Source: Acidobacteriota bacterium
GTDB taxonomy: Bacteria > Acidobacteriota > Terriglobia > 2-12-FULL-54-10
Direction: 5' to 3'
DNA: 38,645 nt
Assembly: GCA_022567475.1 (NCBI GenBank)
Contig: JADFGZ010000004.1
Span: 1 to 38,645 of the forward strand
In this document: positions 9,655-26,755 of the stretch, one piece after another
How the letters are laid out: every line of letters begins with the position of its first letter
How positions within the stretch are numbered: position 1 is the first letter of the stretch
The notes under the pieces: generated by a model
The model's database searches: none
What the model was told of the DNA's origin: nothing
The model's input: the letters and a program-made list of their open reading frames with translations, nothing else
Position numbers and translations under genes: made by a program

Positions 9655-10137
9655 ATGATTAACCGGCAATTCATTATCAACGCTCCGTCGGTAGTGTCCG
9701 AGATCATCGACGGGGAAGTTGTCATCATGAATTTGAAATCGGGCAATTATCACAGCAGCCTAGGAATAGGCGCGGTTGTGTGGGCGTGGATCGAAGAGCG
9801 GAAATCGGTCCGCGAAATCGAGAGGCTCACTTCCCTCCGCTACGATGCCTCTGCAGAGGAAATCACGGTCACGTTAAAGGCGTACTTCGACCGCTTGGTT
9901 GACGAGGACCTCGTGCGCGAGGTTGCCGTTGAAGATCCGGATCGCGCAAACGCACAGGACTATAACGCGTATACTCCTCCGACCAAAGAGCGCTATGAGA
10001 CCCCCGAACTCTGCACTTACACGGATATGCAGGATCTCCTGCTACTCGATCCAATCCACGATGTCGGCGACGCAGGTTGGCCCAAGCCAAGGGACGATAA
10101 GTCCGCCGAACCCTCGCGAGCCGCGAAGGAAGGTTGA
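9655..10137 (+). CDS. PqqD-like RiPP recognition element protein with lasso-leader-like C-terminal tail
   Basis: 160 residues. Residues 1-90 are a PqqD domain (winged-helix RiPP recognition element). It has the family pattern of a beta hairpin with GEVVIMNLKSGNYH, then GIGAVVWAWIEE, and the final helix FDRLVDEDLVREV. In RiPP systems such domains bind the leader peptide and present it to modifying enzymes. The 70-residue tail is the unusual part: Y114-x2-P117-x-L119, then TDMQD, LLLLDPIHDV (128-137) and GWP (141-143). The Y-x2-P-x-L spacing is that of lasso-peptide leaders, which are recognised by B1 (PqqD-like) proteins. The ATG at 9655 is the only start that keeps the domain whole; its Shine-Dalgarno is poor. 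First gene of the operon, 36 nt before a glycosyltransferase. The tail function (self-encoded substrate, docking mimic or kinase target) is inference. Confidence 0.85.
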   Translation: MINRQFIINAPSVVSEIIDGEVVIMNLKSGNYHSSLGIGAVVWAWIEERKSVREIERLTSLRYDASAEEITVTLKAYFDRLVDEDLVREVAVEDPDRANAQDYNAYTPPTKERYETPELCTYTDMQDLLLLDPIHDVGDAGWPKPRDDKSAEPSRAAKEG

Positions 10138-10173
10138 CGGGGGGAGCGCGAACCGGTCGCCGGGACGAAATCC

Positions 10174-10914
10174 GTGGCACAAGTCGCTTACAACCTGGAA
10201 CTGCCCGCTGGCGCAAAGGATCTTTCCGTCAGCGTGATCCTGATTGTGCGAAACGGCGAGCCGTTCATCGCCGAGGCGCTCGGTAGCGTCTTCCGCTCGG
10301 AGACGAAGCCCGCCGAGGTGCTTGTCATCGACGACGGATCGACAGACCGCACGGTAGAGATCGCCGGCGGATTTCCGCGGACTCGGGTCGTGGCCCATCG
10401 CGCGACCGGTACCGCCAACGCTCGCAACCAGGGCATCGAAATGGCGCGGGGCGATCTCATCGCGTTCATCTCTCATGACGACATTTGGGAAGCCGGCAAA
10501 CTCGATTGCCAGGTTGGATTCATGCGGCTGAACCCGGAGGTCGGGTATACGGTAACGATGGTCCGGCATTTTCTTGACGGGGGCGCGAGAATTCCCGATG
10601 GATTTCGTGCCGAGCTGCTGGAAAAGCCGGTTCCAGGCATGATCATGGAGGCGCTTGTCGCGCGGAAGCAGGTCTTCCGGCAGGTCGGCCTCTTCGACTC
10701 GAGTTATTCGGTGAGCGAAGATACGGATTGGTTCGCGCGCGCCAGGGATGCTAAGGTGCCCATGGCGGTTCTTCCGCGCGTACTCGTGAGCAAGCGGGTG
10801 CACGGGACGAACGCCTCGCTCACAACGCCATCAATCAACGCTCAATTGCTGCGCGCCATGCGTGGGTCGATCCGGCGCAAACGGCAAGGCAAGGAGGCGC
10901 CACTTGCCGGATAA
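10174..10914 (+). CDS. GT2-family glycosyltransferase with altered DxD motif
   Basis: 246 residues, a single GT-A domain without membrane segments. It starts with the GT2 opening VSVILIVRNGEPFIAEAL and has VIDDGSTDRTV. The metal-binding position reads SHDD instead of the DADD/DVDD of its two relatives in this operon, so the first Asp of DxD is Ser. The acceptor-side acid motif SEDTDWF, with the catalytic-base Asp, is intact, as is the downstream GLFD. GT2 enzymes move sugars from nucleotide sugars to an acceptor in the cytoplasm. Here the acceptor is inferred to be the operon's peptide or a glycan intermediate. It starts at GTG 10174 with GGGA about 9 nt upstream, and its stop overlaps the next gene by 11 nt. 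Confidence 0.85.
   Translation: MAQVAYNLELPAGAKDLSVSVILIVRNGEPFIAEALGSVFRSETKPAEVLVIDDGSTDRTVEIAGGFPRTRVVAHRATGTANARNQGIEMARGDLIAFISHDDIWEAGKLDCQVGFMRLNPEVGYTVTMVRHFLDGGARIPDGFRAELLEKPVPGMIMEALVARKQVFRQVGLFDSSYSVSEDTDWFARARDAKVPMAVLPRVLVSKRVHGTNASLTTPSINAQLLRAMRGSIRRKRQGKEAPLAG
10891..10897 (+). promoter_or_regulatory. Shine-Dalgarno AAGGAGG fixing a TTG start
   Basis: A near-perfect AAGGAGG lies inside the end of the upstream glycosyltransferase gene, 6 nt before TTG 10904. It makes TTG the likely start of the next glycosyltransferase instead of the GTG at 10862. Confidence 0.75.
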
Positions 10915-11653
10915 CGGTGCCCCGCCGCTGATTAGCGTCATCATTCCATGCTACAACACAGAAGCGTATCTCGCCGAGGCGATCGAAAGCGCGATTGCTC
11001 AGGATGTCGGCGCGCTGGAGATTATCGTCGTTGACGATGGATCGACGGACGGAAGCTCCCGCGTGGCGCGGCGGTTCGGTCCGCCGGTGCGCTATGTAAG
11101 CAAAGCGAACGCCGGTATCAGCTCGGCGCGAAATCGTGGCGTCGAGCTTTCTGCGGGCAGATACCTTACCTTCCTCGATGCGGACGATCTGTGGCCGGAA
11201 GGAAGCCTCCGCCTGCGGATGGAATACATGCGGTCGCATCCGAACACCGTATGCGTATTTGGCGCTCTAGAGGAGTTTGTCAGTCCCGACCTGGATCAAG
11301 ACGAAAAATCCCGCCTCGGTAGGACGCATGCCGCCATGCCCGCACGCTTCGCGGGGTCTATGCTGATCGAGCGCACTGCATTCCTTCGCGTCGGCCTCTT
11401 CCATGAGGGGCTCAAGGTGGGTGAGATGCTCGATTGGGTCGCGCGAGCAGAGCAAGCCGGTGTTGTAATGTGCCTGCTCGAGGCCATCGTGCTACGCCGG
11501 CGCATCCATGGCAACAATACCGTCACGCGGGAGAAGGCGCGGCGAAACGACTATCTTCGCGCGCTGAAAATGTCGCTCGTTCGCAGGCGCGCCGCGGCCG
11601 CAGCGGACACCTCGAACGCCCCGTGCGGCGCGGGCAACATGACGGAGGGGTGA
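10904..11653 (+). CDS. GT2-family glycosyltransferase with altered catalytic-base motif
   Basis: 249 residues if translation starts at TTG 10904 (AAGGAGG 6 nt upstream). It has a GT-A fold: ISVIIPCYNTEAYLAEAI, VVDDGSTDGS, and an intact metal site FLDADDLW. The position that reads SED or GED in the other two enzymes reads GEMLDW, so the usual catalytic-base Asp is Met. The rest of the block (GLF...DW.ARAEQAG, then a RRRIHGNN segment) aligns with its paralogues, which shows that the three GT2 domains of this operon are duplicates of one ancestor. The gene overlaps its predecessor by 11 nt and the next start lies at its stop codon, so translation is coupled. Donor and acceptor sugars are unknown. 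Confidence 0.82.
   Translation: MPDNGAPPLISVIIPCYNTEAYLAEAIESAIAQDVGALEIIVVDDGSTDGSSRVARRFGPPVRYVSKANAGISSARNRGVELSAGRYLTFLDADDLWPEGSLRLRMEYMRSHPNTVCVFGALEEFVSPDLDQDEKSRLGRTHAAMPARFAGSMLIERTAFLRVGLFHEGLKVGEMLDWVARAEQAGVVMCLLEAIVLRRRIHGNNTVTREKARRNDYLRALKMSLVRRRAAAAADTSNAPCGAGNMTEG
11644..11648 (+). promoter_or_regulatory. Shine-Dalgarno GGAGG deciding between GTG 11650 and TTG 11656
   Basis: GGAGG is 1 nt from the GTG at 11650 (too close) but 7 nt from the TTG at 11656, so TTG is preferred. Together with TTG 10904 this gives two consecutive TTG starts with strong ribosome sites in one operon. Confidence 0.55.
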
Positions 11654-11655
11654 AC

Positions 11656-12933
11656 TTGATTGGCCGGATTGCAAACCAGGACTTCTCGCTCTTCGGCTTG
11701 TGGCCGTCGCACGAGCAAGACATCATGCTGCGGGCGGCTATTCTGAACGGCGAGCCTGCCCTCGCCGCCTTTCACGAATGGCTCGGCCTCATCGATCTTG
11801 ATCAGGATTTCGATCCCGCGACGTTTCGTCTCCTGCCGCTTCTTTACGGCAATCTCCGAAAGCTGGGTGTCACGCACCCGATCATGGGCCGGCTCAAGGG
11901 CGTCTATCGGCTTACGTGGTATAAGAACCACAAACTGTTCGACAGCATGCGACCAGTATTGGCGGCGCTGGTCCATGCCGGCATTCGCACGATGCTGCTC
12001 AAAGGCGCGCCGCTTGTCCTCAAGCACTACTCCAATCATGCCCTGCGGCCGATGACCGACATTGACGTGCTCGTGCCCGCCGCTTACGCGCCCCGGGCCA
12101 TCGACGTGCTGAAGAGTCTCGGCTGGCGGCCTTTTGACGATCCCTCGCCGGACGCCTTTAAGTATCGCCATGCCCTGATGCTCTCGAGCGCGGACAATCG
12201 CGAGATCGACATCCATTGGCATTGTCCCATCGAGTTTGCCGGATCCGGAAATGACGATTTCCTTTGGTCTTCCGCCCGCCCGCTCGATTTCAACGGGGTC
12301 GCGACACTCGCGCCGGACCCGACGCGCCACCTTATCGTGACGATCCTTCACGGATTGCGTTGGAACTCGGAGCCGCCTATTCGCTGGATTCCTGATGCAA
12401 TGATTCTCCTGCGGACCTCAGGCGGCGATATCGCCTGGGATGAGTTCGTCGGTTTCGCGAGGGATCAGCAGTTGACCTGCCGCTTGCATCTAGGCCTCTC
12501 GTACCTTCAGAATCGCTTCGATGTTCCCATTCCGGAGGGTGTCCTCGCGGAACTGCAAAGGGTCCGCACGTCCGTGATAGAAAGGATCGAAAACACGGTC
12601 GTCCTTCGGGATATTCGACCGCTCTATTTGCGACCAGCCGGCAATCTGTGGATCATTTTTTCGAATTATTGCCGGTACGCGCGGGGGGCAGGACCGGTGG
12701 AGTTCCTGGTCGGCTTTTCGCACTATCTCCGGTTCCGCATGCAACTGCGCGGGCGCCTGGAGATACCCCGCGTAATCGCGCGTGGTCTCTGGAAGCGGCT
12801 TCTGGCTTTCATTGGCATATGGCAAGCGGGCCAAACGGGAAGACGGACTGAAGAAGACAGGACAAATTCTTCGAAGCAAACGGGGATTCGACGGCTGTTT
12901 GGGCGGCCCATTTTCTTAACAAGGTCAAGGTAG
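11656..12933 (+). CDS. nucleotidyltransferase-family protein (NTP_transf_5/PF14907 type)
   Basis: 425 residues from TTG 11656. The family core is clear: LLKGAPLVLKHY at about 114-125, then RPMTDIDVLVP, giving Asp135 and Asp137 as the metal-binding pair. DIHWHC supplies the third acidic residue (Asp185). The C-terminal third is helical. Proteins of this family recur in lasso-peptide clusters beside HprK-like kinases. In the pseudomycoidin system the homologue (PsmN) adds hexoses to a phosphorylated C-terminal serine. An equivalent role on a phosphorylated peptide fits the kinase encoded downstream, but that is inference. The start overlaps or abuts the previous stop, and the ABC exporter gene follows 7 nt after its own stop. 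Confidence 0.85.
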   Translation: MIGRIANQDFSLFGLWPSHEQDIMLRAAILNGEPALAAFHEWLGLIDLDQDFDPATFRLLPLLYGNLRKLGVTHPIMGRLKGVYRLTWYKNHKLFDSMRPVLAALVHAGIRTMLLKGAPLVLKHYSNHALRPMTDIDVLVPAAYAPRAIDVLKSLGWRPFDDPSPDAFKYRHALMLSSADNREIDIHWHCPIEFAGSGNDDFLWSSARPLDFNGVATLAPDPTRHLIVTILHGLRWNSEPPIRWIPDAMILLRTSGGDIAWDEFVGFARDQQLTCRLHLGLSYLQNRFDVPIPEGVLAELQRVRTSVIERIENTVVLRDIRPLYLRPAGNLWIIFSNYCRYARGAGPVEFLVGFSHYLRFRMQLRGRLEIPRVIARGLWKRLLAFIGIWQAGQTGRRTEEDRTNSSKQTGIRRLFGRPIFLTRSR

Positions 12934-12940
12934 CCATCGC

Positions 12941-14701
12941 ATGACCTACCATCGGCGAACATTCATGGCTAGGATCGAGGCGGCAATACGCCGACGGGTC
13001 GGCCTAACAGATGCCGCCGCGTGGCGGATGTTCGGGGGATATTATCGCCCGCATGCCCGCTCCCTGTTTTTCTATGCCCTCGTTTCATCCGGCCAATCGC
13101 TGACAATCCTGCCGGTTCTGTTTCTCATTCGATATGCCTTCGATGTTGCAATCCCGCAGGGCGATGTCCGCCTCCTGGTCTATTTCGGCGTGGGCATCGT
13201 GATGATCCGGGTGCTCAATGGCGTCATCGTGCTCGCGAGGCGCTCCTACATCGTGCGGATCATCAATGGGGCCATCAGGGATCTGCGGCACGACCTGATT
13301 TCACGGCTCTACGTCCTGTCGCGAGACTTTCACGCGCGGTCCGATCCGGCGCGGGTCCACACGTGGATCGTGCAGGAGACCGGACGCGCCGACAACCTGA
13401 GCAATAAGCTGTTCTCGGCAATGTTGCCTGCGGCGCTTTTGAGCCTGGTGCTTTTCATCTACCTGTGCGTTTTAAGCTGGACCATGGTTCTCCTGATGAT
13501 TGTGGTCGCACCGGCGGTCTGGATCACGATGGGGATCACCGGCAGCCATGTGCAGCGGCACGTGAAGGTGTTTCAGCACTCCTTCGAGACGTTCAGCAGG
13601 GGCGTTTTTTTCGTCCTGCGTCATATTGATCTCACGTTCATTCAGGCTTTCGAACACGAAGAAACGCGCCGGCAAGCACAGCATCTGGAAGATCTCAGCA
13701 GGACTGGCAAAAATATGTCTTTAAGTTTTGCCGTGCATAACGAGGTGCAGCGGAACATCGTAGGGCTGGCCGGCATCCTGGTTCTGGTCTTCGGCGGCGC
13801 CCAGGTGGCGATCGGGCAGATATCGATCGGCGAGTTTCTGACCTTTTATTTGGCGGCCTCCCTGCTCAACGGATCGGTCAATACAGTGATTGGAAGCATT
13901 CCGGATGTCGTCGCCGGCAACGAATCCCTGTCGAAGTTGCGCAGACTGATGGAAGACGGTCCGGTTCAACCTTATTCCGGCTCCAAGCAAATCGCTTTCA
14001 CCGGCCGCATCATGTTGAGCAAGGTTTCCTTTGATTACGGCGGCGATGATCCCGTGCTCGTAAAAATCGACCTGGAGATCCCTCCAGGTGCGCGGATTGC
14101 CATCGTAGGATCGAATGGAGTCGGGAAGAGCACGATCTTCAATCTCATCCTCGGCTTCTACCGGCCGACATCCGGTCAGGTCCTCGCCGACAATGTTTCC
14201 TACGACGGAATCGATATGCGTTTGCTCCGGCGCGAGATCGGAGTCGTCAGGCAGCGCGCGACATTTTTTGCCGGGACCGTGCTCGAAAACATCACCTACG
14301 GCTGGCCCGATGCATGCCTTGACGAGGTCGTGACGGCATCCAGGCTCGCGGGAGCTCATGATTTCATAACCGCGCTAGAGGACGGATACAACACGCAGAT
14401 TGGGGAGAGTGGAATTCTGCTTTCGGGAGGCGAGTGTCAGCGGATCGCGATTGCTCGGGCGCTTCTCGGCAAGCCGAAACTCCTCATACTGGATGAGCCG
14501 ACGAACCACCTCGACGCCGATTCGGTCGAGGCACTGATGCAGACGTTGCTCATGCTCGATTACCGTCCGGGAATCGTTTTGATCAGCCACGACATGCGCG
14601 TCGTAGGCTTTGCGGAGCAGATCTTCCGACTGGAGGAGGGCGTCCTCGTGCGCGTTACGAGGGCGAAGGCCGAGGACCTAGTTGCCGCCGTCGGCGCCTA
14701 A
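12941..14701 (+). CDS. ABC exporter, fused membrane and ATPase domains
   Basis: 586 residues, a half-transporter that would act as a homodimer in the inner membrane. An N-terminal six-helix exporter domain (about 40-330) contains hydrophobic stretches such as LLSLVLFIYLCVLSW. The ATPase domain has Walker A GSNGVGKST (390-398), signature LSGGECQ (494-500), Walker B LLILDEP (514-520) and the switch His in LISHD (His550). There is no N-terminal C39 peptidase, so it does not cut a leader itself. This layout matches the D-type exporters of lasso-peptide clusters. Export of the operon's modified product is inferred. ATG 12941 has AAGG 10 nt upstream and follows the previous stop by 7 nt. Confidence 0.92.
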   Translation: MTYHRRTFMARIEAAIRRRVGLTDAAAWRMFGGYYRPHARSLFFYALVSSGQSLTILPVLFLIRYAFDVAIPQGDVRLLVYFGVGIVMIRVLNGVIVLARRSYIVRIINGAIRDLRHDLISRLYVLSRDFHARSDPARVHTWIVQETGRADNLSNKLFSAMLPAALLSLVLFIYLCVLSWTMVLLMIVVAPAVWITMGITGSHVQRHVKVFQHSFETFSRGVFFVLRHIDLTFIQAFEHEETRRQAQHLEDLSRTGKNMSLSFAVHNEVQRNIVGLAGILVLVFGGAQVAIGQISIGEFLTFYLAASLLNGSVNTVIGSIPDVVAGNESLSKLRRLMEDGPVQPYSGSKQIAFTGRIMLSKVSFDYGGDDPVLVKIDLEIPPGARIAIVGSNGVGKSTIFNLILGFYRPTSGQVLADNVSYDGIDMRLLRREIGVVRQRATFFAGTVLENITYGWPDACLDEVVTASRLAGAHDFITALEDGYNTQIGESGILLSGGECQRIAIARALLGKPKLLILDEPTNHLDADSVEALMQTLLMLDYRPGIVLISHDMRVVGFAEQIFRLEEGVLVRVTRAKAEDLVAAVGA

Positions 14702-14730: not shown

Positions 14731-16539
14731 ATGGATTTTCCCAAAAGGTCTGAAATCGAACAGGAAGCCTTCTTCGACCATGTCTATGAAAAGACGTTGG
14801 AGGCCCAATGTGCCCGCGGCGCCATTGAACATTTCTTCGACGTCGCGGGAACGAAGGTTCGACTCCGCTTCGCGGGCGATCGCCTCGTGCGGGAGCTTGT
14901 GCCCGCTCTCGAACACCTGAGGGCCGCCCCGAGCGCGCAGGCGGACGTCACATTCAACATATGGGACAGCGAGACGACCGGCGTCGAGATGCCGCCGCCG
15001 CCTTGCGACCGCACGCATTTTACGGATCGAGGCGACTTCTGGGGATTTAAAAGCGAACGTTTTCGGACAGCGTTCCATTGGTTCGATTACTCGGTCAATT
15101 TGATGGACCGCCATTCGAAGACGGCGGTCTACTGGGTTCAGACCGGCAATACTCTGCCTTATTGGACAAAGGCGTCACCCCTGCGGACCCTATTCCACTG
15201 GTGGATGGAAATGAACGGTCGCCAATTGCTGCACGCGGCCGCGGTTGGCAACCGGAATGGAGCTGTACTCATTACCGGACCGGGTGGGATCGGGAAATCG
15301 ACGACGGCGCTCGCAGCCCTCACTCACGGGATGAATTACGTCGCCGACGATTATCTAATTGTCGGCCTCGATCCCGAACCTAAAGCCTACAGCCTTTACA
15401 GCACCGCGAAGCTCAACTCCGATCAGGTGGGCACGTTTCCACAGTTGGCTCCGCTGATCTCCAATGGCGACTTCCACGGCGAGGAGAAGGCCATGATGTG
15501 TCTTTTTCCGCATTTCACGCCGCAGATTTCACCTGCCCTGCCGCTCCGCGCGATCCTTACGCCGCGCATTACCGGAGGAAGCGAGACCACGTTAGCGCCC
15601 GCCGACCGGGAAACACTTTACCGCGCGGCCTCTTTCACCACCATGTCGCAGCTGCCGAGTGTCGGCCGCCACACGCTCGACTTCATTGGTAGGCTCACGG
15701 AATGCCTGCCGGGGTTCGATCTCGCACTGGGCTCCGATCTTGCGGGAGTCGTACGGGAGATAGACCGCTTGCTTGCGCTGCTGGAGGCAGACGTAGGCGC
15801 GTCCTTTATTAGCTCTGCGAGCCGTACCTCAGCGGCCGGTGCAGCTCCGCTCGTGAGCGTGATCGTTCCCGTCTACAACGGGGCCGCGTTTCTACGGGAC
15901 GCGATCGAGAGCATTCTCGGTCAAGGCTATCCGTCAATTGAGATCATAGTGGTGGACGATGGATCAACGGACGACATTGACGGCGCGGTTGCATCGCTCT
16001 CTGCAAATATACGCTTCTTCCAACAGAACAACTCCGGCGTTGCCGCCGCCCGAAACCGGGGAATCCGAGACGCATTAGGAGAATTCATCGCTTTTCTCGA
16101 CGTGGACGACCTCTGGCCGGAGAACAACCTGAAAGTGTTGGTTGACGTCTTGCGCGAACAGACCCACATCGACGTCGTTCACGGCCACGGGCAGCTCATG
16201 GAGCTTGATGCCACGACTGGTGAATACGAGTATGTCGGCAATCCCCGCGAGTCTTTTCCGTTCTCTATCGGAGCCGCGCTGTTCCGGCGCAGTGTCTTTG
16301 AAACCGTGGGCCTATTCGACACGAAACTACGGTTCGGGGAGGACACTGACTGGTTCACTCGTGCCCAAGAAATCGGAGTCGTCCTTAAAAGGCTCTCGCA
16401 AGTGACCTTATTGGTCCGCCGCCATGAGCAGAACATGACGCGTGGTAAGTCTCTGATCGAGCTCAACACACTACAGGTCTTTAAAAAGGCGCTCGACCGC
16501 AAACGGCAACGGGATGGCAGGAGTTTGGTGCGGTCTTAG
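14731..16539 (+). CDS. HprK-like serine kinase fused to a GT2 glycosyltransferase
   Basis: 602 residues, two domains. The N-terminal part (1 to about 360) is an HPr-kinase-like protein of the type found in lasso-peptide clusters. It has the lead-in LLHAAAVG, P-loop GPGGIGKST (183-191) and, after it, MNYVADDYLIVGL with the conserved DD pair. It lacks the dedicated N-terminal domain of true HprK and there is no HPr gene nearby. The C-terminal part (about 372-602) is a GT2 domain beginning LVSVIVPVYNGAAFL, with VVDDGSTDD, an intact metal site FLDVDDLW and an intact GEDTDWF. A single polypeptide could thus phosphorylate and glycosylate one substrate. Known relatives (PadeK, PsmK) phosphorylate the C-terminal Ser of a lasso peptide. 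ATG 14731 has GGAG 7 nt upstream. There is no stop or frameshift between domains, so the fusion is real in this sequence. Confidence 0.88.
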   Translation: MDFPKRSEIEQEAFFDHVYEKTLEAQCARGAIEHFFDVAGTKVRLRFAGDRLVRELVPALEHLRAAPSAQADVTFNIWDSETTGVEMPPPPCDRTHFTDRGDFWGFKSERFRTAFHWFDYSVNLMDRHSKTAVYWVQTGNTLPYWTKASPLRTLFHWWMEMNGRQLLHAAAVGNRNGAVLITGPGGIGKSTTALAALTHGMNYVADDYLIVGLDPEPKAYSLYSTAKLNSDQVGTFPQLAPLISNGDFHGEEKAMMCLFPHFTPQISPALPLRAILTPRITGGSETTLAPADRETLYRAASFTTMSQLPSVGRHTLDFIGRLTECLPGFDLALGSDLAGVVREIDRLLALLEADVGASFISSASRTSAAGAAPLVSVIVPVYNGAAFLRDAIESILGQGYPSIEIIVVDDGSTDDIDGAVASLSANIRFFQQNNSGVAAARNRGIRDALGEFIAFLDVDDLWPENNLKVLVDVLREQTHIDVVHGHGQLMELDATTGEYEYVGNPRESFPFSIGAALFRRSVFETVGLFDTKLRFGEDTDWFTRAQEIGVVLKRLSQVTLLVRRHEQNMTRGKSLIELNTLQVFKKALDRKRQRDGRSLVRS

Positions 16540-16557
16540 CGGCAGCTTAATTTCGGT

Positions 16558-16593
16558 GAGTCGGATGAGTCGGATGAGTCGGATGATACGGAT
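16558..16593 (+). repeat. 9-bp tandem repeat at the start of the SDR gene
   Basis: Three perfect GAGTCGGAT units and a fourth (GATACGGAT) lie in tandem, then decay further. Being a multiple of three, the repeat keeps frame. Each unit offers another in-frame ATG (16565, 16574, 16583, 16592, then 16595 and 16604). Confidence 0.8.
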
Positions 16594-17497
16594 GATGCGA
16601 CGAATGATCACGTGGGCGGCCTCTTTTCTTCGGAGCCCCCTTACCAGAGCAGCAGCACCCCCCGCCCGTCTACGCACGTTGCTCGTCACGGGCGCAGCCG
16701 GCCATGTCGCAAGTTGCCTGCGTCCGGGGCTGCGCGAGATGTTCCCGCGCCTGCGGCTCGTCGATATTCGCCCGGTCGCGAATCTCGCGCCGGTGGAAGA
16801 GTTCATGCGCGCCGACCTGTCCGCACCCGGGGTTGCGGAGCGAGCTGTGGCGGGAGTCGATGCCATCGTTCATCTTGCAGCTGTAGCGAAGGAGGCGCCC
16901 TTCGAGATGCTCCACGACGCCAACATCATAGCCACCTATAATCTGTTCGAGGCCGCTCGCCGGCAAGGTGTCCGACGAATCGTTTTTACGAGCACGATGC
17001 ATGTCATGGGGTTCTACCGGCGTGATGAGCCGTTCGACGAGCAGAGCCCACTCAGACCGGACAGCCGCTATGCAGTCAGCAAGGCATTTGGTGAAGCGCT
17101 CGCGCGCCTCTACGCTGACAAGCACGGCCTCCGTGTAGTGTGTCTTCGGATTGGTCACCTGATGCCCACGGAGGACGAAGCGGAGCCTGGCAATTGGGCC
17201 AGTCCCGAAGATCTGCTGTCACTGGTGCGCATCGGTCTCGAACATCCCGACCTTCGCTTCGAGGTTTTTCATGTGATAGCGAACTACGAGGGCGCACCCG
17301 TCCGCATGTCGAGCGCGACCCGTTATGGATTCGTGCCGCGCAGGGCGACCGAGACCTTCGCAAGGACTCTTGCCAGAGCCCGCTCGGCTTGGCCATCGGA
17401 TTCGGTTGCCCAAATGAGTCAAGGCGCAACCTTCGCCTCCGCGGAATATTCCGGTGCTCCGCACGAATCGCCGGTGGATCTGAAAACGAACTCTTGA
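16565..17497 (+). CDS. uronate-dehydrogenase-like extended SDR (NAD-dependent epimerase/dehydratase family)
   Basis: About 310 residues. The Rossmann start is TLLVTGAAGHVASCLRPGL, with the last Gly of TGxxGxxG replaced by Ala. Further motifs are IVHLAAV, NIIATYNLFEAAR, IVFTSTMHVMGFY and the catalytic YAVSK. The PFEM...NII..YNLFEAAR and RYAVSKAFGEALARLYADKHG-type blocks resemble bacterial uronate dehydrogenase (Udh), which oxidises glucuronate or galacturonate to the aldarate lactone. A sugar-modifying role beside three glycosyltransferase domains is plausible. The start is uncertain: ATG 16514 overlaps the previous gene, and six in-frame ATGs lie in a 9-bp tandem repeat. I chose the first ATG after the previous stop. 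The C-terminal 50 residues do not match the family well. Confidence 0.75.
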   Translation: MSRMSRMIRMMRRMITWAASFLRSPLTRAAAPPARLRTLLVTGAAGHVASCLRPGLREMFPRLRLVDIRPVANLAPVEEFMRADLSAPGVAERAVAGVDAIVHLAAVAKEAPFEMLHDANIIATYNLFEAARRQGVRRIVFTSTMHVMGFYRRDEPFDEQSPLRPDSRYAVSKAFGEALARLYADKHGLRVVCLRIGHLMPTEDEAEPGNWASPEDLLSLVRIGLEHPDLRFEVFHVIANYEGAPVRMSSATRYGFVPRRATETFARTLARARSAWPSDSVAQMSQGATFASAEYSGAPHESPVDLKTNS

Positions 17498-24961: not shown

Positions 24962-25708
24962 TCACACTGCTAAGAAAGGCTCTGCCACCAAAAGCAGGCG
25001 GTAGGGCCATCGCCGCTTGATCATGCAATTGCGCAATCCAGCACGGCTCGCAGTTTGCAATAATTCTTCCTTGCGGAACGCCTGTTCAAACGAGACGAGA
25101 CCGTCAATGCGGCTCATGGCACAGGTTGTAAAGAAAGGATTGAACAAGCGGAAGAAATAGTAGGGAACAGGGTGTCTTTCCAAGTCACTGACGATTATGG
25201 CTCGGCGTGCCCACCGGCTCATCATCCGCAAAAGTTCGACGGCTTGATCCTCAGAAAGGTGATGCAAAAAATGAGAACAAGTAACAAAATCAAAGGATCG
25301 ATCTGGCACAGGCGCGTGAAATGCGTCGGCGGAGAAAGGGTGCAACTTGGGATATGCCGCGAGTTCATCCCGAAACAGTGCGAGATATCTGTGCCAGTAC
25401 TCCAACGCAAAGACTTCCGCTTCGAGCCCCTGCTGTTGTGCCCATTTCAGGATAGCAAATGGCAGGTCGCAGGAACCGCTGGCAATATCTAGGACGCTGA
25501 ACCGGGTAAGTTTATGGCAGCTAACTTGCCCCTCCAAAACTTCCAGCAAAAGTTTTTGACTTCCAAAGATCCTGTTGATGCGACGGATGTCTAACAAATT
25601 CCGTCGCACCTCCTCATCGGGCATATTCCCGGCATCGATCAGTTCCGGGCGCAAAACTCGCGAAGAGAAATCAGGCACTTTGAGGTGTAGGATCGAAGCC
25701 AGTCGCAT
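24962..25708 (-). CDS. class I SAM-dependent methyltransferase, partner of type III PKS
   Basis: 248 residues. SAM motif I is VLDIASGSCDLPF at about 74-86, the acidic motif II lies in EVFALEYW, and FDFVTCSHFLHHLSE is the motif after strand 4. It starts 12 bp after the polyketide synthase stop, with AAGGAG overlapping that stop codon (TAAGGAG), so the two genes form an operon. In bacterial type III PKS operons such enzymes often O-methylate the alkylpyrone or alkylresorcinol product. That is the likely role, not proven. Confidence 0.88.
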   Translation of the reverse strand: MRLASILHLKVPDFSSRVLRPELIDAGNMPDEEVRRNLLDIRRINRIFGSQKLLLEVLEGQVSCHKLTRFSVLDIASGSCDLPFAILKWAQQQGLEAEVFALEYWHRYLALFRDELAAYPKLHPFSADAFHAPVPDRSFDFVTCSHFLHHLSEDQAVELLRMMSRWARRAIIVSDLERHPVPYYFFRLFNPFFTTCAMSRIDGLVSFEQAFRKEELLQTASRAGLRNCMIKRRWPYRLLLVAEPFLAV

Positions 25709-25720
25709 CTCTGCTGCTCC

Positions 25721-26755
25721 TTACCACTCTAGCAAGGCTACCTCAGCCGCAAAGCCAGGGCCCAGGGCTAACAGAATCCCCCGATCGCCCACGCGAGCGG
25801 AACCCGTTTCCAGGACATCGTGGAGCACAAATAGAACTGTGGGAGACGACATATTCCCGTAGTTCCGCAGGATTCGACGGGAAACGGCCAGATCGGCTTC
25901 GCTGAGTCTAAGCGCATCCTGAACGCGGTCAATCACCTTTCGACCGCCCGGATGGATCAACCAGTAACGGATATCTTTACGGCTGAGCCCTTGGGGGCAT
26001 AGCAACTCGTCGAGCACACGGTCAATGAGGGGAGGAGCTAGGTCAGGGATAGTAGGGGAGAGGATGATGCGGAGGCGTCCGTCTCGTTGTTCAAAACCTA
26101 CAGAATTCTGGCAGCTTGTGTCCAGCCATGAAGCGAAGCGGACGATGCGTGGGCCGGTATCCCCCCGACAAGTCAACAAGCAGGCAGCAGCACCGTCAGA
26201 GCAGATGGCATTGCCTACCAACGTCTCCAGTGTATCGTCAATGTAATATGCAGCGGAGCAAATCTCTACCGCCACCACCAGCACTCTGTGATCCGGATAG
26301 GCCAGGGCATGGTCATATGCGCGCTGCAGCGTCGGAAGGGCTCCGGCACATCCCAGACCCAATAAAGCCCCTCGTTGCACGCTTCGCGGTAGCTGCATTT
26401 CCTTAACCAGGATCGTGGCGAGGTCCGGGCAGAGATAACCTGTGCAGGAGCAAACAAGGATGCAATCGATCTCTTCAACGCCCAAGCCCGCCTTTGCTAG
26501 GCAGCGCTGCGCCGCCTGCCGGGCAATGAGCACCGCGCCTTCTTTATAACGGCGGTGCAATTCGTCCGGGCTCTCGTTTGCCGTCCCATTGATGGGATCC
26601 ATGTAAAGGTAACGATAGTCAATGTCGCAGTTGAAAAAGATCTCGCGCGCAATCGGACGGGTATAGCCTGTTATCCGCAACACCTCTTGCTGAGTAAAGC
26701 GCTGCGGTGGAACGGCCGTCGCCACCGATACGATGCGCGGCTCTGGTTTCTTCAT
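25721..26755 (-). CDS. type III polyketide synthase (chalcone/stilbene synthase-like)
   Basis: 344 residues. It belongs to the thiolase-fold family that extends an acyl-CoA starter with malonyl-CoA and cyclises it to pyrones, resorcinols or similar phenolics. The triad is visible: Cys136 in LLGLGCAGALP, His268 in YWLIHPGGRKV, Asn301 in NYGNMSSPTV. Other typical stretches are CILVCSCTGYLCPDL and the C-terminal LALGPGFAAE. The initial MKKPEPRIVSVATAVPP is a normal bacterial N-terminus; AAGG lies about 8 nt before the ATG. A methyltransferase gene follows 12 bp downstream. No oxidoreductase or prenyltransferase partner is adjacent. A 76-bp promoter-like repeat (26819-26894) lies upstream. Confidence 0.95.
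   Translation of the reverse strand: MKKPEPRIVSVATAVPPQRFTQQEVLRITGYTRPIAREIFFNCDIDYRYLYMDPINGTANESPDELHRRYKEGAVLIARQAAQRCLAKAGLGVEEIDCILVCSCTGYLCPDLATILVKEMQLPRSVQRGALLGLGCAGALPTLQRAYDHALAYPDHRVLVVAVEICSAAYYIDDTLETLVGNAICSDGAAACLLTCRGDTGPRIVRFASWLDTSCQNSVGFEQRDGRLRIILSPTIPDLAPPLIDRVLDELLCPQGLSRKDIRYWLIHPGGRKVIDRVQDALRLSEADLAVSRRILRNYGNMSSPTVLFVLHDVLETGSARVGDRGILLALGPGFAAEVALLEW

Follow-up and report, generated by a model that had tools for sequence, protein, structure and literature searches.

A natural fusion of an HprK-like kinase and a GT2 glycosyltransferase beside an RRE protein in an Acidobacteriota bacterium and in further phyla

The locus and the fused gene

The window considered here, which is the whole stretch of DNA that was analysed (38,645 nucleotides, contig JADFGZ010000004.1 of assembly GCA_022567475.1), comes from an Acidobacteriota bacterium and carries, on the forward strand, genes in the order RRE protein, two GT2 glycosyltransferases, NTP_transf_5 protein, MsbA-like ABC protein and, at 14731-16539, one uninterrupted open reading frame of 602 codons in which an HprK-like kinase and a GT2 are joined (Table 1). 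The epimerase/dehydratase gene that follows is loosely linked to this cassette, with relatives in two other loci, and its true start is unclear because a short imperfect tandem repeat of GATGAGTCG-like units (read as MSRMSRMSRMIRMM; 16556-16604) sits at the start of its frame. Elsewhere in the window, a frame near the contig edge (125-763) resembles by its sequence the end of an IS630-type transposase, and a frame on the reverse strand (25721-26755) resembles a type III polyketide synthase, which together with a methyltransferase-like frame on the same strand (24962-25708) could form a separate small biosynthetic locus.

Table 1. Positions in the window of the fusion domains and motifs and of the neighbouring genes
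Feature	Position	Strand	Basis
RRE/PqqD-like protein with conserved C-terminal tail	9655..10137	+	PF05402; model
RRE tail: YETPEL (RRE-binding-type motif), then CTYTDMQDLLLLDPIHDVGDAGWP	9994..10083	+	
Extra GT2 (GTa), same family as fused GT2	10174..10914	+	Pfam; tree
Extra GT2 (GTb), same family as fused GT2	10862..11653	+	Pfam; tree
NTP_transf_5 nucleotidyltransferase-like protein	11650..12933	+	PF14907, E 9.4e-37; start probable
MsbA-like ABC exporter	12941..14701	+	Pfam
HprK-like kinase domain, residues 1-352 (about)	14731..15786	+	Profiles, invariant motif, AF2
Walker A / P-loop GPGGIGKS, residues 183-190	15277..15300	+	Sequence, alignment
Catalytic Asp pair D206-D207 (ADDY)	15346..15351	+	Sequence; aligned with Asp pair of HPr kinase 1jb1
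Inter-domain linker, residues 353-371	15787..15843	+	Variable across relatives in sequence and length; disordered
Complete GT2 glycosyltransferase domain, residues 372-602	15844..16536	+	PF00535; model matches; clade
NAD-dependent epimerase/dehydratase, possible sugar-supply gene, start uncertain	16604..17497	+	Pfam

The first-pass annotation had described a single frame holding a P-loop kinase region and a complete GT2 domain, and both the motifs and the Pfam matches bear this out. The C-terminal part belongs to glycosyltransferase family 2 by its Pfam score (Glycos_transf_2, PF00535, residues 376-482, E 1.2e-29, 103.8 bits against a cut-off of 23.3), by its GT2 fold and by its motifs DVDD (residues 457-460) and GEDTDWF (536-542), of which DVDD and GEDTDW are conserved. 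Compared with solved GT2 structures, this part of the model matches WrtF (Z 26.1) and 6p61 (Z 26.1). WrtF (9omh and others), 6p61 and the heparosan and chondroitin synthase domains share fold and motifs over the whole C-terminal domain, but none of them is listed with an attached kinase and, at 25-30% identity, their donors and acceptors are not transferable to the fused GT2.

The kinase part begins with a region of about 150 residues in which many tryptophan, aspartate and arginine residues are invariant. The His-Lys-Asp-Asp catalytic set described for lasso-peptide kinases (PMC9266682) is present in the fusion kinase, a lasso-type HprK-like set in which H168, K189, D206 and D207 are invariant in all 19 kinase rows of the alignment. 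Hpr_kinase_C (PF07475) matches residues 166-210 (E 1.6e-5, 25.0 bits, below the Pfam cut-off of 33.3), and the HPr kinase/phosphorylase model TIGR00679 gives 22.8 bits against a curated cut-off of 240. HprK_rel_A (TIGR04352) and HprK_rel_B (TIGR04355), which model a kinase without a GT2, reach 26.9 and 38.3 bits, far below their curated cut-off of 200; these two and the SynChlorMet models ScmC and ScmD (TIGR04249, TIGR04248) give weak matches to the kinase and the RRE protein. With the kinase part alone as query, HprK_rel_B matches residues 161-247 (E 8.5e-10), and it is matched by all 19 kinase rows, below its cut-off where shown. When the 19-row kinase profile was compared with solved chains, HPr kinases came first (1jb1, E 2.7e-6), the 1jb1 alignment spanning the P-loop and the Asp pair. 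Fold-search lists were filled by the GT2 domain and are thus uninformative on the kinase fold; the HprK placement comes from sequence profiles, by which the assignment appears real but remote, the characterised families being distant from this kinase in sequence (scores below curated cut-offs).

The AF2 model of the fusion, built from a 21-row alignment, has a mean pLDDT of 85.6 and consists of two ordered parts and a linker, with values mostly of 75-97 in the kinase domain and below 50 at linker residues 356-359 and 361-370. Among relatives the linker measures 11-19 residues and varies in sequence, both of its flanks being conserved in the alignment. The pTM of the fusion is 0.63, and the mutual facing of the two active sites is not fixed by this model.

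Distribution of fused and separate forms

Scanning one genome for each of 84,980 species with patterns from both domains gave 22 loci, 21 of which carry the fusion, the other (L030) being cut by a contig end; the window is 40-56% identical to these relatives over the aligned proteins. Besides the window, 27 other loci with a kinase::GT2 fusion were found in total (the fused rows of L024 and L058 are identical), in at least eight phyla beside the window's own: Nitrospirota, Myxococcota, Thermodesulfobacteriota, Bacteroidota, Balneolota, Eiseniibacteriota, Gemmatimonadota and Pseudomonadota. One fusion lies in a contig of an isolate, Rhodohalobacter sulfatireducens WB101 (L021), and later searches yielded two on longer contigs, of 2.2 Mb (G419, L086) and 3.9 Mb (G1445, L087). 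The first-pass annotation had named homologues that are always split as the mark of a sequencing or assembly error; with 21 of the 22 scan loci fused, the fusion is instead conserved and chance is excluded. The window's genome is a fragmented assembly (432 contigs, 83% complete), which would suit an erroneous joining of two genes, but the 27 other fused loci, forming one clade in many independent assemblies that include megabase contigs and an isolate, already refute this and leave it virtually impossible. The frame at 14731-16539 is confirmed as a genuine kinase::GT2 fusion on one chain.

In a Maximum Likelihood tree of 49 kinase domains (28 fused and 21 split), all fused domains lie on one side of one branch, with a support of 100/99. 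Because the fused rows form one clade with this support, a single fusion event is likely, and it is the simplest reading of the tree. The fused GT2s are likewise a distinct clade in their own tree (SH-aLRT 99). The tree does not show that the fused GT2 arose directly from the GT2 genes beside split kinases, since it forms its own clade with no firm sister among those genes.

The fusion is not the sole form of this system, as the same RRE tail commonly accompanies stand-alone kinases. With the kinase-only profile (A4), counts were obtained from samples of whole genomes, and they describe these samples, not bacteria at large. In the 297 genomes of the window's phylum there were ten stand-alone kinases (E 1e-101 to 1e-45), and only the window's genome had a fusion. 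The phylum of L021 (345 genomes) gave four fused and one split, the phylum of L017 (345 genomes) three fused and five split, with both forms in one genome, the phylum of L012 (245 genomes) two fused and three split, and the order of L029 (346 genomes) three fused and one split. Split kinases are often followed by a same-family GT2 gene (L032, L034, L036, L040, L042 and L043, and also L056, L062, L064, L068 and L073), and in L032 the stop codon of the kinase overlaps the start codon of the GT2 (GTGA). The split kinases of L080, L081 and L089 precede a GT4 (Glycos_transf_1) and not a GT2. L080 and L081, which cover L060 and L069 more widely, fall in the group that is sister to the fused clade, and the pairing of the kinase with this GT2 is not universal, a GT4 following in two of the three nearest split relatives (L080 and L081). 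The system is not defined by the fusion either: many relatives run the same cassette with a separate kinase.

The cassette and the tail of the RRE protein

Of the 18 fused loci flanked on each side by 4 kb or more, all encode an RRE protein and further GT2s, 17 encode NTP_transf_5 and 10 the ABC protein, and the window has all of these. The nine split loci all have the RRE protein and its tail, with NTP_transf_5 in six, a GT2 in eight and the ABC protein in none. The exporter, found in 10/18 fused and 0/9 split loci, is therefore not a constant part of the cassette; a peptidase domain is not among the Pfam matches of the MsbA-like protein. In the NTP_transf_5 protein the DxD...D motif is intact, with D137, D139 and D187 invariant in the alignment, and a comparison of one relative (that of L015) with solved structures gave no match. 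Further genes in some loci encode radical SAM-SPASM proteins, sulfotransferases, polysaccharide deacetylases or sugar epimerases. Proteins of about 460 amino acids adjoin several cassettes (L017:12279-13658, L020:11369-14199 and L086:13058-14455), and the members scanned have no Pfam match. A conserved small ORF or separate precursor peptide was sought in the loci and none was found, and a separate conserved precursor was rejected on this ground.

The RRE protein is a member of the RRE/PqqD family (PF05402, 34.9 bits against a cut-off of 23.4) and its model has the RRE fold, the closest solved structure being that of the lasso RRE TbiB1, determined together with its leader peptide (TMt 0.91). 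It is laid out as a PqqD fold, a variable linker and a conserved C-terminal tail with the consensus FxxPxLxKY[ST]DMQDLLLLDPIHDV..GWP or, in a fuller form, F/YxxPxLxKY[ST]DMQDLLLLDPIH[DE]V..xGWP. The first part of this tail belongs to the motif class [Y/W]xxPx[L/V/I], which is bound by discrete RREs (PMC13381572). By an automatic pattern the tail was found in 17 of the 18 fused loci, the exception being L023, and a search with the tail alone found exactly one copy in every one of 12 genomes, located at the cassette each time. L023 has two RRE/PqqD copies in one cassette (2248-2649 and 9799-10263); the copy at 2248 keeps a tail DPIHDV..GWP and the tail of the other is degenerate (FSASYFIEEKGWP).

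In the model of the RRE protein the YETPEL block reaches a pLDDT of about 97, the preceding linker lies at 66-70, and the remainder of the tail declines from 71 to 52-58. From this confidence and the strand assignment, the YxxP motif of the tail is predicted to dock in the protein's own groove. Asp, Pro and Trp make up the residues of the tail that are invariant among near members. The best Ser/Thr site is occupied in some members by Gly, Asp, Asn, His, Glu or Arg, the Tyr is replaced by Phe in others, and the alignments contain no invariant Ser, Thr or Tyr in the tail. As no hydroxyl residue is invariant, the tail is a poor Ser/Thr/Tyr acceptor family-wide; it may serve for recognition or as a scaffold, or else be an unusual substrate.

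Known systems and possible function

The architecture of the fusion, its conservation, its motifs, its cassette and its single clade, all read from the sequences, can be compared with several described pathways. In paeninodin, pseudomycoidin and LPP the kinase and the sugar-adding or NTP-transferase enzymes are separate, as the first-pass annotation held for known systems, and no account of an HprK-GT2 enzyme was found among open-licence PMC papers, in agreement with its remark that none was known to have been described. The LPP clusters of Bacillota, which encode an RRE, an HprK-like kinase, an NTP transferase, an MsbA-like transporter and an SpI peptidase and are often rich in glycosyltransferases, have been demonstrated to form a working serine-polyphosphorylating RiPP pathway, in which LppK adds several phosphates to Ser3 of LppA and deletion of LppN caused no detectable change of product, the authors suggesting that LppN may need a partner (PMC13381572). 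The core of LPP (LppK/LppB/LppN/LppD/LppS), that is a discrete RRE, an HprK-like kinase, an uncharacterised NTP transferase and an MsbA-like exporter, is held in common with our cassette and is entirely present in the window; both also have a YxxPx-type motif and often glycosyltransferase-rich loci, and LPP has no lasso cyclase. By contrast, LPP is described as restricted to Bacillota and has a stand-alone kinase, an SpI leader peptidase and separate LppA precursors (YxxPxVLxHQxIxFETxxS), whereas in the present cassette the kinase is fused to a GT2 and the tail is carried by the RRE protein. No SpI-like (SipW-type) peptidase matched TIGR02228 above the cut-off in 12 cassette genomes, with a positive B. 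subtilis control, and no separate precursor of the LppA type was found in the loci, the tail of the RRE protein being their only conserved YxxP-type tail.

Pseudomycoidin and paeninodin (PsmK/PsmN and PadeK; PMC9266682) likewise involve a His-Lys-Asp-Asp HprK-like kinase and an RRE protein, and pseudomycoidin, as our cassette, has a nucleotidyltransferase partner. PsmK phosphorylates a serine and PsmN is needed for hexoses on the phospho-Ser, a host glycosyltransferase acting after nucleotidylation not being excluded (PMC9266682). Phosphate and then hexose on one serine are a chemical precedent, by analogy with which it is a fair inference that the kinase and GT2 activities of the fusion act on one acceptor, as the first-pass annotation had predicted. 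Unlike the fusion, PsmK and PsmN are separate proteins, and lasso clusters have a B2 protease, a macrolactam cyclase and a precursor. The lasso B2-type protease PF13471 is absent from the window's genome, as far as this 83% complete assembly goes; its matches in other cassette genomes lie on another contig or more than 100 kb from the cassette, none of them at the locus, and a macrolactam cyclase (asparagine synthetase-like) is not among the 25 of 72 families listed for 50 neighbours. With no SpI, no B2 protease at the locus and no separate precursor, the cassette is not filed here as LPP or lasso; it most likely works like LPP and lasso tailoring.

We tentatively propose, at a little short of even confidence, that the fusion is a bifunctional tailoring enzyme in an RRE-dependent peptide-modification pathway related to LPP and pseudomycoidin, in which phosphorylation would be followed by sugar transfer. 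We infer its substrate, order of steps, linkage, donor sugar and export as follows: the RRE protein would present the peptide, the kinase domain would move phosphate from ATP onto it, the tethered GT2, with NTP_transf_5, would put the first sugar on or beside the phosphate, the free GT2s would lengthen the glycan, and the ABC protein would export the product. The fused GT2 would then be an obvious candidate for the partner that LppN and PsmN have been suggested to lack. Such a tailoring role is supported by the conserved cassette (RRE 18/18, NTP_transf_5 17/18) and the invariant His, Lys and two Asp, by an LPP gene set that works in Bacillota and the phosphate-then-hexose precedent of pseudomycoidin, by one fused clade in at least eight phyla with split relatives that run kinase then GT2, and by an RRE model nearest to TbiB1 with its confidently placed YETPEL segment. 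It is weakened by the lack of a conserved precursor gene and of an invariant hydroxyl in the tail, by the distance of the kinase from characterised families, by a model that does not fix how the active sites are turned towards each other and by the GT4 of L080 and L081. We regard with considerable doubt the possibility that a single-chain peptide kinase-glycosyltransferase builds a sugar-phosphate linkage on a peptide borne by the RRE protein itself, which would be a self-sufficient carrier of RRE and substrate, with no separate precursor and widespread outside Bacillota, the product staying on this carrier or leaving it.

The joint occurrence of kinase, nucleotidyltransferase and glycosyltransferase, the catalytic Asp residues retained by NTP_transf_5 and the other sugar genes near some loci would also suit a sugar-activation relay in which no peptide is phosphorylated, the kinase acting on a free sugar, NTP_transf_5 making an NDP-sugar and the fused GT2 using it. 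However, the HPr/lasso protein-kinase motif of the kinase, the RRE protein at every locus with enough flank, which sugar salvage does not need, and the LPP kinase of the same kind that acts on a peptide serine (PMC13381572) make this relay, and the channelling of sugar that the fusion would then provide, unlikely.

The tail of the RRE protein, which the first-pass annotation proposed to assay as the acceptor, could itself be the substrate, YxxPxL being an in-built leader and DMQDLLLLDPIHDV..GWP a core that is phosphorylated and then glycosylated by the fusion; its strict linkage to the cassette, once per genome, its strong conservation, the predicted docking of its YxxPxL part and the absence of any other conserved small ORF in the loci agree with this. 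Against it, the Ser/Thr position is variable and Tyr gives way to Phe, so that this acceptor is weakened, and with Asp, Pro and Trp as the invariants modification would call for an acceptor that is acidic, Trp or His, or for a non-equivalent residue, which leaves the tail a quite unlikely substrate. Very unlikely, in our estimate, is a regulatory kinase whose targets are HPr-like or polysaccharide-synthesis proteins and which controls the attached GT2 in an ordinary exopolysaccharide cluster: HPr kinases are the nearest solved structures by sequence and the loci are rich in glycosyltransferases, but the gene is linked to an RRE protein with a YxxP tail, no HPr gene was seen in the loci and the kinase of the LPP cassette modifies a peptide (PMC13381572).

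In the tailoring role that we prefer, the fusion probably helps to make a phosphorylated, sugar-decorated peptide. A natural kinase-GT2 fusion beside an RRE protein and, nearly always, an NTP transferase points to a likely partner of PsmN and LppN, and it offers a single protein for assaying phosphate transfer and sugar transfer side by side. LPP-like peptide chemistry would then extend well outside Bacillota, and the cassette would show a compact form of it, with the YxxP tail built into the RRE protein.
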